Shown here: piece after piece, positions 36,259 to 44,185 of the stretch
Layout: each line of letters begins with the position of its first letter
Numbering within the stretch: the stretch's first letter is position 1
From: Chelatococcus sp. YT9
Lineage (GTDB): Bacteria > Pseudomonadota > Alphaproteobacteria > Rhizobiales > Beijerinckiaceae
DNA length: 64,000 bases
Direction of reading: 5' to 3'
Assembly: GCF_018398315.1 (NCBI RefSeq)
Contig: NZ_JAHBRW010000001.1
Span: forward strand, 1,670,001 to 1,734,000
Position numbers and translations under genes: made by a program
The notes under the pieces: generated by a model
What the model was told of the DNA's origin: nothing
What the model saw: only the letters and a program-made list of their open reading frames with translations
Databases searched by the model: none

Positions 36259-36334
36259 CCCTGAGCGTGATCCCGGTCGGCAGCCATATCGCATATATTG
36301 ACATAATGCGTCGGATACCCCCTATATCTAGTGG

Positions 36335-36520
36335 TCACGGTCGCTCGATTCGAGCGCGAGAGAGGGAATTCGGACACGGCGTTCGTGCGTCGTGAGGCCG
36401 GAGCTGCCCCCGCAACTGTAAGTGGCGAGTCTGCGTCCAACTGACGTCACTGACGCCGCAAGGCGTCGGGAAGGCAGGGCGTGGCCGGAGACCCACAGCC
36501 AGGAGACCTGCCGCGACGAT
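36335..36520 (+). promoter_or_regulatory. Adenosylcobalamin riboswitch
   Basis: Matches the cobalamin riboswitch consensus: AGAGGGAATTCGG near 36361, GAGGCCGGAGCTGCCCCC followed by GCAACTGTAAG near 36394-36422, TCACTGACGCC then GTCGGGAAGGC near 36447-36477, and the B12 box ACAGCCAGGAGACCTGCC ending at 36512. The 5' boundary is approximate. It lies between dsbB and nrdA on the nrdA strand, so binding of coenzyme B12 should lower nrdAB expression. Confirmable by a covariance-model search with the Cobalamin family. Confidence 0.95.
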
Positions 36521-36616
36521 TGAGATTGTCCTCGGGCGGGGTGCCCCGGTGGATCGCCAGGGCCAGCGTCGGCGTGACAGCCGAACGTTTTCGCTCGCGC
36601 GTCCGCTCGGCCTTTG

Positions 36617-36639
36617 CCCCCACATCATTGGGGTTTGTT
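36617..36639 (+). promoter_or_regulatory. Candidate expression-platform hairpin before nrdA
   Basis: CCCCA/TGGGG stem with CATCAT loop, followed by TTTGTT, ending just before ATG 36644. It could act as a terminator or hide the nrdA ribosome binding region when the upstream riboswitch binds ligand. The stem is short, so this is tentative. Confidence 0.45.
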
Positions 36640-36643
36640 GCCG

Positions 36644-39610
36644 ATGTCCCTGACGACCGAAACCGCAGCCCAACCGTCCCACACGTCCAGGATGGCGATG
36701 GAGATGCCCCGCGCTGCCGCGGAGCCGGGCTACAAGCTCATCCGCCGCAACGGTGCCGTGACGCCATTCGACCCGTCCAAGATCGCCATCGCCTTGACCA
36801 AGGCCTTCCTCGCCGTCGAGGGATCGGGCGCCGCCGCCTCGCGCCGGGTGCATGACATCGTGGCGGATCTCACCGACCAGATCGTCACTGCGCTGATGCG
36901 CCGCGCCGATGCTGGGCGCACCTTTCACATCGAGGATGTGCAGGACCAGGTCGAGCTCGCGCTGATGCGTAGCGAGCACCACAAGGTGGCGCGCGCCTAT
37001 GTGCTCTATCGCGAGGAGCGGGCGCGCGAGCGGGCTCGCGCCGCCGGTGAGGCGAAGGCGGTGACGCCCGAGCCGCGCCTTCGCATGAAGGGCGCCGACG
37101 GCGAGCTCGTGCCGCTCGACGAGGCCTGCCTTGCCGCCATCATCGCGGAAGCCTGCGCCGGCCTCGAAGGCGTGGCGCCGGAGGCAATCCTCGCGGAGGC
37201 GCGCCGCAACCTTTACGATGGCATCAGCCGGGACGAGCTGGCGCTCGCGCCGATCCTCGCGGCCCGCACCCTCGTTGAAACCGAGCCGGACTATGCCAAG
37301 GTCTCGGCGCGGCTCCTGAACGACAAGCTGCGGCGCGAGGCCCTGAGCTTCGTCTTCGGCCGGACGGAGGAGGCGGCCCAGGCCGAGATGGCCGAGCGCT
37401 ACCCGAGCTATTTCCATGCCTATGTGAAGACGGGCATCGACAACGAACTGCTCGATCCGGAACTCGCGCGGTTCGACTTGACGCGTCTTGCCGCCGCGCT
37501 GAAGCCCGAGCGCGACCTCAATTTCGACTATCTCGGCTTCCAGACGCTCTACGACCGCTATTTCCTGCATGTGCGCGGCACCCGGTTCGAGCTGGCGCAG
37601 GCCTTCTTCATGCGCGTCGCCATGGGGGTTGCCCTGCGCGAGGTGGACCGGGAGGAGAAGGCGATCGAATTCTATGATCTCCTCTCATCCTTCCATTTCA
37701 TGTGCTCGACGCCGACGCTGTTCAATGCCGGCACGCGCCGCTCGCAGCTCGCCTCCTGCTTCCTGACGACGGTGTCGGACGACCTCGACGGCATCTTCAA
37801 GGCCATCAAGGACAATGCCCTGCTCGCCAAATATTCCGGTGGTCTCGGCAATGACTGGACGCCGGTGCGCGGCCTCGGTGCCCATATCAAGGGCACCAAC
37901 GGTGAGAGCCAGGGCGTCGTGCCCTTCCTGAAGGTGGCCAACGACACGGCGATAGCCGTGAACCAGGGCGGCAAGAGGAAGGGCGCGGTCTGCGCCTATC
38001 TCGAGACCTGGCACGTGGATATCGAGGAATTCCTCGATCTCAGGAAGAACACCGGCGACGACCGCCGCCGCACCCACGACATGAACACCGCCAACTGGGT
38101 GCCGGACCTCTTCATGCAGCGCGTCGAGGCGGACGGCCCGTGGACGCTGTTCTCGCCGGACGAGGTGCCGGACCTGCACGATCTCTACGGGCCAGCCTTC
38201 CGCGAGGCTTACGAGGCCTATGAGGCGAAGGCCGCGCGCGGGGAGATGAAGGTGTCCAAGCAGGTCCGGGCGCTTGACCTCTGGCGGCGCATGCTGACCA
38301 TGCTGTTCGAGACCGGCCATCCCTGGCTCACCTTCAAGGATCCCTGCAACATCCGCTCGCCCCAGGGGCATGTCGGCGTGGTGCATTCCTCGAACCTCTG
38401 CACCGAGATCACGCTGAACACCTCCCATGACGAGGTCGCCGTCTGCAATCTCGGCTCCGTCAATCTGGCGGCGCATGTCACGGCCGACGGCCTCGATATG
38501 GAGAAGCTGGCGCGCACGGTCAGAACCGCGATGCGCATGCTCGACAATGTCATCGACATCAATTTCTACACGATCCCGGAGGCACGCCGCTCGAACCTGC
38601 GCCACCGGCCGGTCGGCCTCGGGCTGATGGGCTTTCAGGATGCCCTGCAGACCCTGCGCGTTCCCTATGGCTCGGACGCGGCGGTTGCCTTCGCGGACGA
38701 GAGCATGGAGGCGATCTCCTTCCATGCCATCGCGTCCTCGGTCGATCTGGCAGCCGAGCGCGGCCGCTATTCGTCCTTCGAGGGGTCGCTGTGGTCGCGC
38801 GGGATTCTGCCGATCGATTCCGTCCGCCTGCTGGCGGAGGCACGCGGCATTGCGCCTGACGATGCAGTCGGCGAAGGCGTTCTCGAGCTCTCGTCAAGGC
38901 TCGATTGGGAGGGGCTGCGCCAGCGCGTGGTGACGACCGGCCTGCGCAATTCCAACTGCATGGCGATCGCGCCCACGGCGACGATCTCCAATATCTGCGG
39001 GGTCAGCCAATCGATCGAGCCCGCCTACCAGAACCTCTTCGTGAAATCGAACATGTCGGGGGACTTCACCGTGGTAAACGCCGCGCTGGTGCGCGACCTC
39101 AAGGCGCGCGGCCTGTGGGACGAGGTGATGGTGTCGGATCTCAAATATTTCGACGGCAGCGTCGGCCAGATCGACCGGGTGCCCGACGATCTCAAGGCGC
39201 TCTATGCGACGGCCTTCGAGATCGATTCGGCGTGGCTGATCGAGGCGGCCGCCCGCCGGCAGAAATGGATCGACCAGTCACAATCGCTCAACCTCTATAT
39301 CGCCAACCCGTCCGGCAGGAAGCTCGACACGCTCTATCGTCTGGCGTGGCAGCGCGGCCTGAAGACCACCTACTACCTGCGCTCGCGCTCCGCGACCCAT
39401 GTCGAGAAGTCGACGCTGAAGGGCACGGACGGCAAGCTCAACGCAGTTTCCGCAGTGGTGCCGGCTGCTGCGCTAGCAGCCTCGCCGATCCTTGTCGCCG
39501 CGACACGCGGCGTTGGCGGGGCTCGCGTGAGTGAAGCTGAAGCGGAACTGGGAACGGCGTGGGGCAAGGCCTGCTCGATCGACGATCCTGATTGCGAAGC
39601 CTGCCAGTAA
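36644..39610 (+). CDS. nrdA: Ribonucleotide reductase class I large subunit
   Basis: Catalytic subunit (988 residues) reducing ribonucleoside diphosphates. Two N-terminal ATP-cone-like regions are visible: about residues 30-125 (YKLIRRNGAVTPFDPSKI) and about 145-240 (LRMKGADGELVPLDEACL). Core residues: first redox Cys in LASCFLTTV, N584-L-C586-T-E588 (active-site Asn, thiyl Cys, Glu), second Cys in AVCNLGSVNL, the radical-transfer Tyr pair in KTTYYLRSR, and C-terminal C984-E-A-C987. Longer than E. coli NrdA because of the extra cone. The start at 36644 lacks a strong ribosome binding site; ATG 36614 is in frame. Controlled by the upstream riboswitch and followed by nrdB. Confidence 0.95.
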   Translation: MSLTTETAAQPSHTSRMAMEMPRAAAEPGYKLIRRNGAVTPFDPSKIAIALTKAFLAVEGSGAAASRRVHDIVADLTDQIVTALMRRADAGRTFHIEDVQDQVELALMRSEHHKVARAYVLYREERARERARAAGEAKAVTPEPRLRMKGADGELVPLDEACLAAIIAEACAGLEGVAPEAILAEARRNLYDGISRDELALAPILAARTLVETEPDYAKVSARLLNDKLRREALSFVFGRTEEAAQAEMAERYPSYFHAYVKTGIDNELLDPELARFDLTRLAAALKPERDLNFDYLGFQTLYDRYFLHVRGTRFELAQAFFMRVAMGVALREVDREEKAIEFYDLLSSFHFMCSTPTLFNAGTRRSQLASCFLTTVSDDLDGIFKAIKDNALLAKYSGGLGNDWTPVRGLGAHIKGTNGESQGVVPFLKVANDTAIAVNQGGKRKGAVCAYLETWHVDIEEFLDLRKNTGDDRRRTHDMNTANWVPDLFMQRVEADGPWTLFSPDEVPDLHDLYGPAFREAYEAYEAKAARGEMKVSKQVRALDLWRRMLTMLFETGHPWLTFKDPCNIRSPQGHVGVVHSSNLCTEITLNTSHDEVAVCNLGSVNLAAHVTADGLDMEKLARTVRTAMRMLDNVIDINFYTIPEARRSNLRHRPVGLGLMGFQDALQTLRVPYGSDAAVAFADESMEAISFHAIASSVDLAAERGRYSSFEGSLWSRGILPIDSVRLLAEARGIAPDDAVGEGVLELSSRLDWEGLRQRVVTTGLRNSNCMAIAPTATISNICGVSQSIEPAYQNLFVKSNMSGDFTVVNAALVRDLKARGLWDEVMVSDLKYFDGSVGQIDRVPDDLKALYATAFEIDSAWLIEAAARRQKWIDQSQSLNLYIANPSGRKLDTLYRLAWQRGLKTTYYLRSRSATHVEKSTLKGTDGKLNAVSAVVPAAALAASPILVAATRGVGGARVSEAEAELGTAWGKACSIDDPDCEACQ

Positions 39611-39946: not shown

Positions 39947-41077
39947 ATGCTCGATTGGTCAGAGCCGAAGGCCACAGCCGCGCTCCCATTCCAGCCCTTG
40001 CCGTCCGGCCAGCATCCCGCCGGGGATGCCACCGGCCTCGGTGCCATCGATCGCGGCGGCCAGCGCGTCACCGTCGACGACAAGGCGATGATCAATTGCC
40101 GCGCCGACGTGAACCAGTTGCTGCCTCTCAAGTATAAATGGGCCTGGGAGAAGTATCTCGCCGGTTGCAACAACCACTGGATGCCGACCGAAGTTTCCAT
40201 GCAGGCCGATATCGCCCTATGGAAGTCACGCGATGGCCTGACTGACGACGAACGGCGCGCCATCAAGCGCAATCTCGGTTTCTTCGCGGCGTCCGAGAGC
40301 CTCGTGGCCAATAATATCGTGCTGGCTATCTATCGGCACCTCACCAATCCCGAATGCCGGCAGTATCTGCTGCGCCAGGCCTTCGAGGAGGCCGTCCACA
40401 CACACACCTTCCAATATATCGTGGAAAGCCTCGGCCTCGACGAGGGCGAGCTGTTCAACATGTACCGTGAAGTGCCGTCGATCACCGACAAGGCGGCCTG
40501 GGCGCTGAAGCACACCCAGCATCTCGACGATCCCGATTTCAAGACCGGCACGCCGGCGGCGGACCAGGCCTTCCTGCGCGATCTCGTGGCCTTCTACGTC
40601 GTGTTCGAAGGCATGTGGTTCTACACGGGCTTCGCGCAGATCCTGTCGCTGGGTCGCCGCAACAAGATGGTCGGCATTGCTGAACAGTACCAGTACATCC
40701 TCCGTGATGAGAGTATTCACCTCAATTTCGGCATCGACGTCATCAACCAGATCAAGCATGAGAACCCGCATCTCTGGACATCCTCCTTCCAGGAGGAGGT
40801 GAGGGGTATGCTGCGCGAGGCGGCGGAGCTCGAGGCGGCTTATGGCAGGGACACCATGCCGCGCGGCTTCCTCGGCCTGAATGCCGCGCTTTGCGAGCAC
40901 TACATGCATTTCATCGCCAACCGGCGCTGCGCGCAGCTCGGACTGTCGCCTGTTTTCGCCGAGACGGACAATCCCTTCCCCTGGATGTCGGAGGCGATGG
41001 ACCTGAAGAAAGAGAAGAACTTCTTTGAAACGCGGGTCATCGAATACCAGAACGGCGGCGCATTGAGCTGGGACTGA
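39947..41077 (+). CDS. nrdB: Ribonucleotide reductase class I small subunit, class Ic-type (Phe at the radical Tyr site)
   Basis: Metal-cofactor subunit (376 residues). Candidate metal ligands: E117 (ASESLVANN), E148 and H151 ([14 protein letters not shown]), E221 (VVFEGMWFY), E255 and H258 (RDESIHLNF). The residue four after H151, where E. coli NrdB has radical Tyr122, is Phe155, and the first ligand is Glu rather than Asp. These spacings equal those of Chlamydia trachomatis R2 (E89, E120, H123, F127, E193, E227, H230), the founding class Ic enzyme with a Mn(IV)/Fe(III) centre. The C-terminus [11 protein letters not shown] resembles the R1-docking tail. ATG 39947 has GGAG upstream; a longer in-frame extension lacks similarity. 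Confidence 0.93.
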
Positions 41078-41286: not shown

Positions 41287-41371
41287 GCGGGTGTGGTGGA
41301 ACTGGTAGACGCGCCGGACTCAAAATCCGGTTCCGAAAGGAGTGTCGGTTCGATTCCGACCACCCGCACCA
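41287..41371 (+). tRNA. tRNA-Leu (anticodon CAA)
   Basis: 85-base class II tRNA. Acceptor stem GCGGGTG/CACCCGC, anticodon stem CCGGA/TCCGG with loop CTCAAAA (anticodon CAA, codon UUG), a long variable arm (TTCCGAAAGGAGT region), T-loop GGTTCGATTCC and an encoded CCA end. Confidence 0.97.
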
Positions 41372-42631: not shown

Positions 42632-42805
42632 CTGCGGTTCACGGCCGTTTCTTAAAGAAACGCCGGGCCGACCGCCTTGAGGCAAACTCGGGCGGTCGAT
42701 GGCGAGCCGTCGCCAACGATTGATCTTCGCCTGTCTGGCTTCCCGTGACCATGCCATACATGCTACGCCCGTGTATGTTGATAAGCCGTACAGTTGAGGA
42801 ACGAG

Positions 42806-44185
42806 ATGTGGCAGCCGCGACTGATTGAAAGCGCCCGCATGAAGTACCTCGGGATTGTCGAGGCACTGCAGGCAGATATTCAATCAGGCAGGGTGGCGCG
42901 GGGAGAGAGGCTTCCGCCGCAGCGCGCCATCGCGGAAGCGCTCAAGGTGGACCTCACGACGGTGACGCGCGCTTTCAACGAGGCCCGCCGACGCGGCCTC
43001 GTTGAAGCCCAGGCCGGACGCGGAACCTTCATCAGTGAGGGGCGCCATGGGGCTGGTGCGGAAGAGCAGGCGCCGCCGCTGATCGATCTCAGCATGAATA
43101 TTCCGCCCCAACCGCCCGAGGCGGATTTCAAGCGGGCGTTCCCCCACGGAATCGCGGCAATCCTCGGTAGCTCGCGCGGCATGTTGAGCTTGCATTATCA
43201 GGCGAGCACCGGCGCGGCGCCTGATCGACAGGCAGCCGCAAAATGGCTCGCGCAGCGGCTGGAGGGCGTGACCAGCGATCGAATCGTGGTCGCGGGCGGC
43301 GCGCAGAGCGCGCTCTTTGCGATATGCGAACTCTTGTTCGCCCGTGGCGACGTCGTTGCGGCCGGAGCGATGACCTATCCGGGCCTGAAGGCTGTCGCAG
43401 CGCAGAAGGGGCTCTTCCTGGAACCGCTGGCCATGGATGAGGAAGGCATCATTCCCGACGCCTTCGCGCAGGCCTGCCGCGAACGAGCGCCAAAGGCGCT
43501 TTACCTCATTCCCTCGATCGATAACCCGACGACTGCGACATTGTCCGAGGCGCGGCGGCGTGCCCTCGCGGCCCTGGCGCGGCAACATGGCGTCACGATT
43601 ATCGAGGACGATCCCTACGCGCTGCTAAGGCCTGAGCGGCGGCTTGCGCTGGCCGAACTGGCAGGTGACATAACCTGGCATATCGCCACGCTTTCAAAAT
43701 GCGCGACACCCGCCTTGCGCGTGGCCTATGTGGTGGCCCCGGGCGCCTCGCAAGCCATGCGTCTCGCCGGCGCGCTGCGTGCCACCCTTCTGATGGCGCC
43801 ACCGCTGATGTCGGCCCTGGCAACACGGTGGATCGTCGATGGCACGCTCAACCGAATCGCCACGTCTATCCGCGCCGAGAATGTGGCGCGGCAGAAGTTG
43901 GCAGCCTCCATTCTGGAGGGCGTGAGCTTCGATGCGGATCCCCATGGGCACCATCTGTGGCTGCGGCTACCCGCCCATTGGTGCGCGGCTGATTTTGCGG
44001 ACCATGCAGATCGCGCGGGGGTTTCCATCGTGCCGAGCGCGGCCTTCGCCGTTGTCGCTCATCCCCTCGAGGCCGTCCGGATCTCGCTGGGCGTTGCCCC
44101 GGATCGGGGTGCTCTCGAAGACGCTCTGACGTTGCTCGCGGGCCTCATGTCCCAGCCTTCGATCGCAGCTCGCGCCGTGGTGTGA
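42806..44185 (+). CDS. MocR/PdxR-type regulator (GntR helix-turn-helix fused to aminotransferase fold)
   Basis: 459-residue chimera. Residues 10-75 form a GntR winged helix ([20 protein letters not shown], then [20 protein letters not shown]). The rest is a fold-type I PLP aminotransferase: [28 protein letters not shown], and the Schiff-base Lys in [18 protein letters not shown]. Such proteins sense PLP-linked metabolites and regulate vitamin B6, GABA or amino-acid genes. Target unknown. ATG 42806 has GAGGA eight bases upstream. Confidence 0.9.

Follow-up and report, generated by a model that had tools for sequence, protein, structure and literature searches.

Class Ic ribonucleotide reductases (RNRs) are known from Chlamydia trachomatis. 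Its R2 protein reacts in the Mn(II)/Fe(II) form with O2, the additional electron travels through W51 and Y222, and the resulting Mn(IV)/Fe(III) centre stores the oxidising equivalent (PMC4118035, PMC11883743). W51 and Y222 thereby take part in cofactor activation (PMC4118035). R2 proteins with Phe in place of the radical Tyr (Phe-type) are also mentioned outside Chlamydia, in haloarchaea and "other bacteria" (PMC3019208), and more than 150 R2 sequences without the Tyr had been counted by 2014 (PMC4118035). The same review notes class Ic mainly in pathogens and extremophiles and explains it as robust against host-made radicals (PMC4118035). Vitamin B12 enters through another system: in Streptomyces coelicolor, which also has nrdJ, a cobalamin riboswitch precedes the nrdABS genes (PMC4991794, PMC5962746).

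We analyzed a stretch of 64,000 nucleotides from the alphaproteobacterium Chelatococcus sp. YT9 (hereafter, the window), which carries nrdA followed by nrdB. The features of this region are listed in Table 1.

Table 1. Features of the nrdAB region, in window coordinates.
Feature	Position	Strand	Remarks
Possible NrdR box pair, 31 bp apart	36288..36334	+	36288-36303, 9/16 matches; 36319-36334, 12/16 matches
Cobalamin riboswitch aptamer (RF00174)	36321..36529	+	nrdA leader; Rfam 105.3 bits vs gathering score 31.5
nrdA, catalytic subunit	36614..39610	+	ORF from TTG 36614; ATG 36644 and 36692 are candidate starts
Small hairpin, CCCCA/TGGGG stem, 6-base loop	36618..36633	+	Directly before ATG 36644
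nrdB, class Ic-type radical-generating subunit	39947..41077	+	376-aa ORF
E117, NrdB first ligand	codon 40295-40297	+	Aligned with C. trachomatis E89
F155, Phe at the NrdB radical-Tyr position	codon 40409-40411	+	Aligned with C. trachomatis F127
tRNA-Leu (caa)	41287-41371		About 200 bases 3' of nrdB
GntR/aminotransferase (MocR-like) regulator	42794-44185		Downstream of nrdB

NrdB is recognized as an R2 protein by both Pfam (PF00268, 313 bits) and NCBIfam (R2/NrdB model NF005550, 679.9 bits, cut-off 309), and we found no other PF00268 gene in the 6.74-Mb genome. Its reading frame is also open 5' of ATG 39947, but this start is sound because most homologues align from residue 1. Translation and scripted numbering placed the site residues at E117, E148, H151, F155, E221, E255 and H258, which align with E89, E120, H123, F127, E193, E227 and H230 of the C. 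trachomatis R2; the intervals between them (31, 3, 4, 66, 34 and 3) are equal in the two proteins. The reading frame, Phe155, Glu117 and the Chlamydia spacing, all proposed earlier from the letters alone (the sequence-only reading), are confirmed by this numbering. Alignment further equates W78, Y250, D254 and Y367 of NrdB with W51, Y222, D226 and Y338 of C. trachomatis, of which we take Y338 and D226 to be path residues. We rejected a class Ia identity, defined by a radical Tyr and an Asp as first ligand, as NrdB has F155 and E117 instead. An R2lox identity was also rejected (best R2lox model at 52.9 bits, below the cut-off of 194; nrdA adjacent). The alignments support well a class Ic-type radical site in NrdB: Phe occupies the radical position, the first ligand is Glu and the electron-path residues are present, and the class Ic reading stands as far as this site is concerned. 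The predicted structure of NrdB was poor (mean pLDDT of 55.7, from 22 similar rows) and no conclusion is based on it. The expectation that generic annotation would miss such a protein was fair, since the labels of annotated plasmid relatives go no further than "ribonucleotide-diphosphate reductase subunit beta".

Both nrdA and nrdB have open frames. NrdA had been described as a two-cone protein, which is fair, although the second cone is weak: the first ATP cone scores well over the Pfam cut-off (81.4 against 25.8 bits), and the second is degenerate and scores 21.2 bits, below the same cut-off. In several actinobacterial NrdAs the alignment with the window NrdA begins no earlier than its residue 137-176, and because of this late start they seem to be without the first ATP cone. 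The NrdA of Nocardiopsis halophila (L066:1082-4930) is a 1282-aa ORF with what looks by eye like an intein-like insert in the barrel domain.

The leader of nrdA contains a cobalamin riboswitch that spans the full RF00174 model (positions 1-189) and was found again by a whole-genome search; it is predicted to bind adenosylcobalamin and to lower expression. There is no clear terminator in the leader, the fold is not unusually stable (z -0.99), and a single terminator-like site is present, against a mean of 0.2 in shuffled sequences; the hairpin before ATG 36644 might, speculatively, form the expression platform. The two putative NrdR boxes near the promoter are only suggestive. They were scored against a consensus with a pair threshold of at least 9 matches in both boxes and at least 10 in one; when the window was divided into 119 stretches of 530 bases, 4 held a pair at this threshold. 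Among the relatives, 50 of 76 have such a pair, but the stretches scanned there reach 1.9 kb and are longer than the 530-base background.

These relatives come from a scan of named genomes that yielded at least 595 stretches encoding an NrdB relative. The best 80 of the 595 were kept; they were picked by similarity and are mutually non-independent. At least 3.3 kb upstream of nrdB was available for 76 of the 80 (L004, L012, L046 and L063 were dropped), and a cobalamin riboswitch was found upstream of nrdAB in 62 of these 76 loci, 48 by the Rfam gathering score and 14 by the B12-box pattern alone. In all 62 the riboswitch ends upstream of the first NrdA-aligned residue, by 48-277 bases in 61 loci and by 434 in L055. 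No riboswitch at the gathering score was found in the remaining 14 of the 76 loci. A second search of 6 of these 14 with a relaxed threshold produced correctly placed matches below the gathering score in two Nocardiopsis loci (29.2 and 20.9 bits) and no match in the other four. L010, L014, L017, L019, L020, L026, L030 and L042 each have an additional cobalamin riboswitch on the nrdB strand, roughly 0.1-3 kb downstream of this gene.

A separate sample was drawn from a search of 398 genomes of the phylum for the radical-site motif with either Tyr or Phe. This motif matched 60 genomes, from which 20 stretches were taken for close comparison. The riboswitch precedes nrdA in 6/6 alphaproteobacterial Phe-type loci of the sample; it was found neither in L123 and L124, the two Phe-type loci from outside this class, nor in any of the 11 Tyr-type loci.

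We then considered the B12 context of the genome. Its second R1 is a NrdJ of the B12-dependent type, 1256 aa long, in which the class II N-terminal domain PF08471 is accompanied by a TSCPD domain. Five cobalamin riboswitches exceed the cut-off in this genome, and the four others precede metE (PF08267), mesX (PF08908; strand of the site checked), the cobalt transporter gene cbtA (PF09490) and a gene for an ABC transporter ATPase. MesX is the partner of a B12-independent methionine synthase. In seven relatives (L009, L011, L022, L024, L025, L040 and L043), nrdAB stands back to back with a divergent metE, each with its own riboswitch, and this divergent pair constitutes a B12-sparing island. Among the relatives' genomes carrying the Phe-type gene, PF08471 is present in 62 of 74 (this count omits L004, L012, L046, L063, L039 and L047 from the best 80 of 595). 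In the separate sample, NrdJ was counted as a separate second gene over the TIGR02504 cut-off, since a few NrdAs pass it as well. By this measure NrdJ is present in 7/7 Phe-type genomes of the class (counting that of the window), 0/2 Phe-type genomes outside the class and 5/11 Tyr-type genomes. The Tyr-type nrdAB, whose loci showed no riboswitch (0/11), is therefore without one even where NrdJ is present.

Within the Phe-type clade, riboswitch and NrdJ occur together in 54 genomes, the riboswitch alone in 6, NrdJ alone in 8 (of 14 without the riboswitch) and neither in 6, which gives a Fisher P of 0.008 when kinship is ignored. We do not retain this association: it loses significance when the relatedness of the genomes is taken into account, and the four well-supported independent comparisons do not decide it.

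The riboswitch and the class II NrdJ, which were absent from the sequence-only reading, point to the likely role of nrdAB. We consider it probable, on the sequence features described here, that nrdAB encodes an O2-dependent, class Ic-type Mn/Fe RNR that acts as a riboswitch-controlled, B12-sparing isozyme alongside NrdJ. With B12 plentiful, adenosylcobalamin bound to the leader RNA would shut off nrdAB and NrdJ would make the dNTPs; with B12 or cobalt short, the switch would open and the Mn/Fe enzyme would take over. NrdB would assemble a Mn(IV)/Fe(III) centre with O2, and this centre would store the radical in place of a tyrosyl radical and oxidise the NrdA cysteine via W78/Y367. In such a scheme nrdAB would spare the B12 of NrdJ in the way that MetE spares MetH.

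Alternatively, nrdAB could be the main aerobic RNR, with the riboswitch only tuning it and NrdJ serving low-oxygen growth, so that oxygen and not B12 would divide the labour. The six riboswitch-bearing loci from genomes without a PF08471 match (6 of 74, one of these genomes being 1.9 Mb and probably incomplete) are in line with this alternative, as are the two Phe-type genomes outside the class with neither riboswitch nor NrdJ, which suggest that the enzyme can be a main RNR. However, NrdJ is present in the genome studied here, where the riboswitches otherwise mark B12-independent methionine-synthase and transport genes, and cobalamin riboswitches usually act by repression, as is well established. 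We find this division of labour fairly unlikely and prefer the B12-sparing role.

A second alternative keeps the B12-sparing role and changes the chemistry: NrdB would be part of a Phe-type class I RNR whose oxidant in vivo is other than Mn/Fe (e.g., Fe/Fe or Mn/Mn). One ligand set can serve several centres, so that sequence does not fix the metals (PMC4118035). NrdB is, moreover, only 58% identical to the C. trachomatis R2, and a single origin of the Phe types is not established. On the other side, NrdB keeps the C. trachomatis ligands and assembly residues, and it has Glu as first ligand, a feature shared by the two Mn/Fe groups known so far (PMC4118035). Since all the residues matching the C. 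trachomatis chemistry are present, the same chemistry is the best inference for NrdB; Mn/Fe are the metals we infer, and another oxidant seems quite improbable.

The radical site itself is highly conserved. Alignment with other R2 proteins, which the sequence-only reading had suggested as a check, places Phe and not Tyr at the radical position, and the seven site positions read E-E-H-F-E-E-H in 81 of 81 sequences (the window's own locus and the best 80 of 595 relatives). Judging from this alignment, the Phe/Glu site is clearly neither chance nor a sequencing slip. Class Ia enzymes are killed by Phe in place of the radical Tyr, which would suit the idea that an ordinary class Ia enzyme has been disabled here or that the gene is decaying. 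This idea carries almost no weight given Phe and Glu with all ligands intact in 81/81 sequences from three phyla and open frames in both nrdA and nrdB.

The comparison with Tyr-type proteins shows which residues set the two types apart. The window's class accounts for 8 of the 60 motif-matching genomes, all with a Phe codon; one of them, G429, is a chance match and was rejected, its 6-kb stretch (L117) being without an NrdB. The remaining 52 comprise 50 genomes with Tyr and 2 with Phe (G420 and G703). In the 20-stretch sample, the Tyr proteins carry Asp117, Ala154 and Tyr155 (11/11) and the Phe proteins Glu117, Thr154 and Phe155 (8/8). A 60-row alignment extends this pattern, with Glu117 in 44/44 Phe rows and Asp117 in 16/16 Tyr rows: ligand 117 and the radical position change together across the aligned sequences. 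Other residues are shared by all 60 rows (W78, E148, H151, E221, D254, E255, H258 and Y367) or by 59 of them (Y250). Because W78, Y250, D254, Y367 and the remaining ligands are common to Tyr rows too, they are necessary for class Ic and do not discriminate it.

Both versions can be found in one bacterial family (f201), whose members L123, L124 and L125 (G420, G703 and G729) include Phe/Glu and Tyr/Asp proteins; the Phe-type L123 and L124, without riboswitch or NrdJ, group with the actinobacterial L067 in the tree. Among seven plasmid-borne relatives, three are Asp/Tyr, two are haloarchaeal Glu/Phe and two are distant Asp/Tyr. Two plasmid loci, L141 (Acidithiobacillus caldus megaplasmid) and L142 (Flagellatimonas plasmid), possibly encode orphan Tyr-type beta subunits, as the annotation shows no nrdA within some 4.5 kb of their nrdB. 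On the Azospira plasmid pAZI09 (L140), a distant nrdB follows nrdA in one gene run with a class III reductase and its activase. In the Pseudomonas putida phages vB_PpuM (H63-H71), the R2 matches fall in two pieces over about 1.8 kb, which suggests an insert in the gene.

We further analyzed the origin of the Phe type. The R2 tree included 33 of the 80 named relatives, hand-picked for spread; it is unrooted as to the direction of change between Tyr and Phe. The distant outgroups L140 and L143 were dropped from a second tree because of saturated branches (length 10). In this second tree, made with the three trait columns removed, 41 bacterial Glu/Phe rows lie on one side of a branch with support of 100/99; they comprise Alphaproteobacteria, Acidobacteria, Actinobacteria, G420 and G703 from another class, and the protein of PDB entry 6y2n. 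The C. trachomatis protein and two haloarchaeal plasmid proteins stand apart from this clade, with weak support (84/69, then 82/57). Four Asp/Tyr rows are nearer to the bacterial Glu/Phe clade than the C. trachomatis and haloarchaeal rows in the best tree, which would imply two changes. Forcing all Phe rows together lowers the log-likelihood by no more than 0.23 units (AU P of 0.51), so that one and two origins are not separable. The intermixing of types agrees with a published R2 sequence network, which places Ic-like and Ia-like members in one cluster with Pseudomonas aeruginosa (PMC8463856). The label "Chlamydia-type" from the sequence-only reading thus holds as a description of the site, and the tree gives no proven kinship with Chlamydia, which lies with the haloarchaea in the best topology.

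The best 80 of the 595 relatives belong to Hyphomicrobiales and other Alphaproteobacteria, Acidobacteria and Actinobacteria, and their sources are mostly environmental, judged by names. When 385 sampled genomes of the class were searched for the exact motif, 3 of them matched, including that of the window; one of the three, the Phe-type genome G257, is outside the later comparisons. Within the 398-genome search, the Tyr-or-Phe motif was not found in any of 12 other genomes of the same family. The class Ic-type NrdB is more widespread than the sequence-only reading supposed, yet patchy. The claim that it is unusual in a free-living alphaproteobacterium therefore holds only in part: the many environmental relatives, the 6y2n structure and the Phe-type R2s in print speak against it, and the patchiness (3/385 genomes of the class) speaks for it. 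Streptomyces nanshensis (L072 / L152) is the sole match to the Glu/Phe motif among 41 genomes of the genus; its single R2 is class Ic-type and its nrdA (L072) is preceded by a cobalamin riboswitch, while 10 others sampled have a distant Asp/Tyr R2. One R2 type was apparently replaced by another in this species.

More broadly, it seems an even bet that the large class Ic-type clade of Alphaproteobacteria, Acidobacteria and Actinobacteria is a standing B12-sparing partner of NrdJ, in which a cobalamin riboswitch exchanges a cobalt radical enzyme for a Mn/Fe one. On the same reading, the Glu/Phe pair of the clade may have originated inside the Asp/Tyr (Pseudomonas-type) subfamily, separately from that of Chlamydia, and nrdAB and its riboswitch may have passed from phylum to phylum as one cassette. 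A class Ic type in many environmental genomes, tied to B12 supply, offers another testable reason for the type, namely that a cell economising on cobalt/B12 uses manganese and iron. These species would also provide culturable, non-pathogenic hosts for studying class Ic chemistry in vivo, and their close Asp/Tyr relatives (60-70% identical) could inform how tyrosyl-radical and metal-radical enzymes interconvert in evolution. The class Ic-type NrdB alone is ordinary for its clade; the point of interest is the combination of inferred Mn/Fe chemistry with B12 control. We found no report joining class Ic with a cobalamin riboswitch in the portions of the literature searched, older B12-regulon papers being outside their scope, and this union may be new.

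Several described systems share part of these properties. The best solved relative is the R2 of Saccharopolyspora erythraea (PDB 6y2n, PMC7467353), which is 87% identical to NrdB over 337 residues, has the same E/F pair and belongs to the same clade. It differs in being actinobacterial, and the available text of PMC7467353 treats it as a crystallography case, without an account of metals or regulation. The C. trachomatis R2 (1syy, 4d8f, 4m1i) shares the seven site residues with their spacing and the W51/Y222/D226/Y338 equivalents; in contrast, it is 58% identical over 342 residues, sits on a separate branch with haloarchaea in the best tree and comes from an obligate intracellular organism. 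The Tyr-type NrdBs of other Pseudomonadota (Pseudomonas-like) are of the same subfamily, 60-70% identical to NrdB and encoded beside nrdA, but they differ at positions 117, 154 and 155 and in the cobalamin riboswitch (each in 11/11 proteins or loci sampled). The Streptomyces nrdABS, called class Ia, likewise follows a cobalamin riboswitch, and its genome also has class II nrdJ (PMC4991794, PMC5962746). We rejected class Ic as a description of this B12-controlled enzyme: the usual Streptomyces R2 is Asp/Tyr, 32-34% identical to NrdB, in 10/11 genomes sampled (S. coelicolor was not identified among them), and the Glu/Phe motif occurs in only 1/41 genomes of the genus. This indicates the same B12 control on a different cofactor type. 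Finally, Propionibacterium acnes nrdAB has a leader with an annotated cobalamin riboswitch, an NrdR box at the promoter and nrdJ elsewhere in the genome; its NrdB could be of either cofactor type, and the likeness to the locus described here lies in the leader and nrdJ (PMC3848588).
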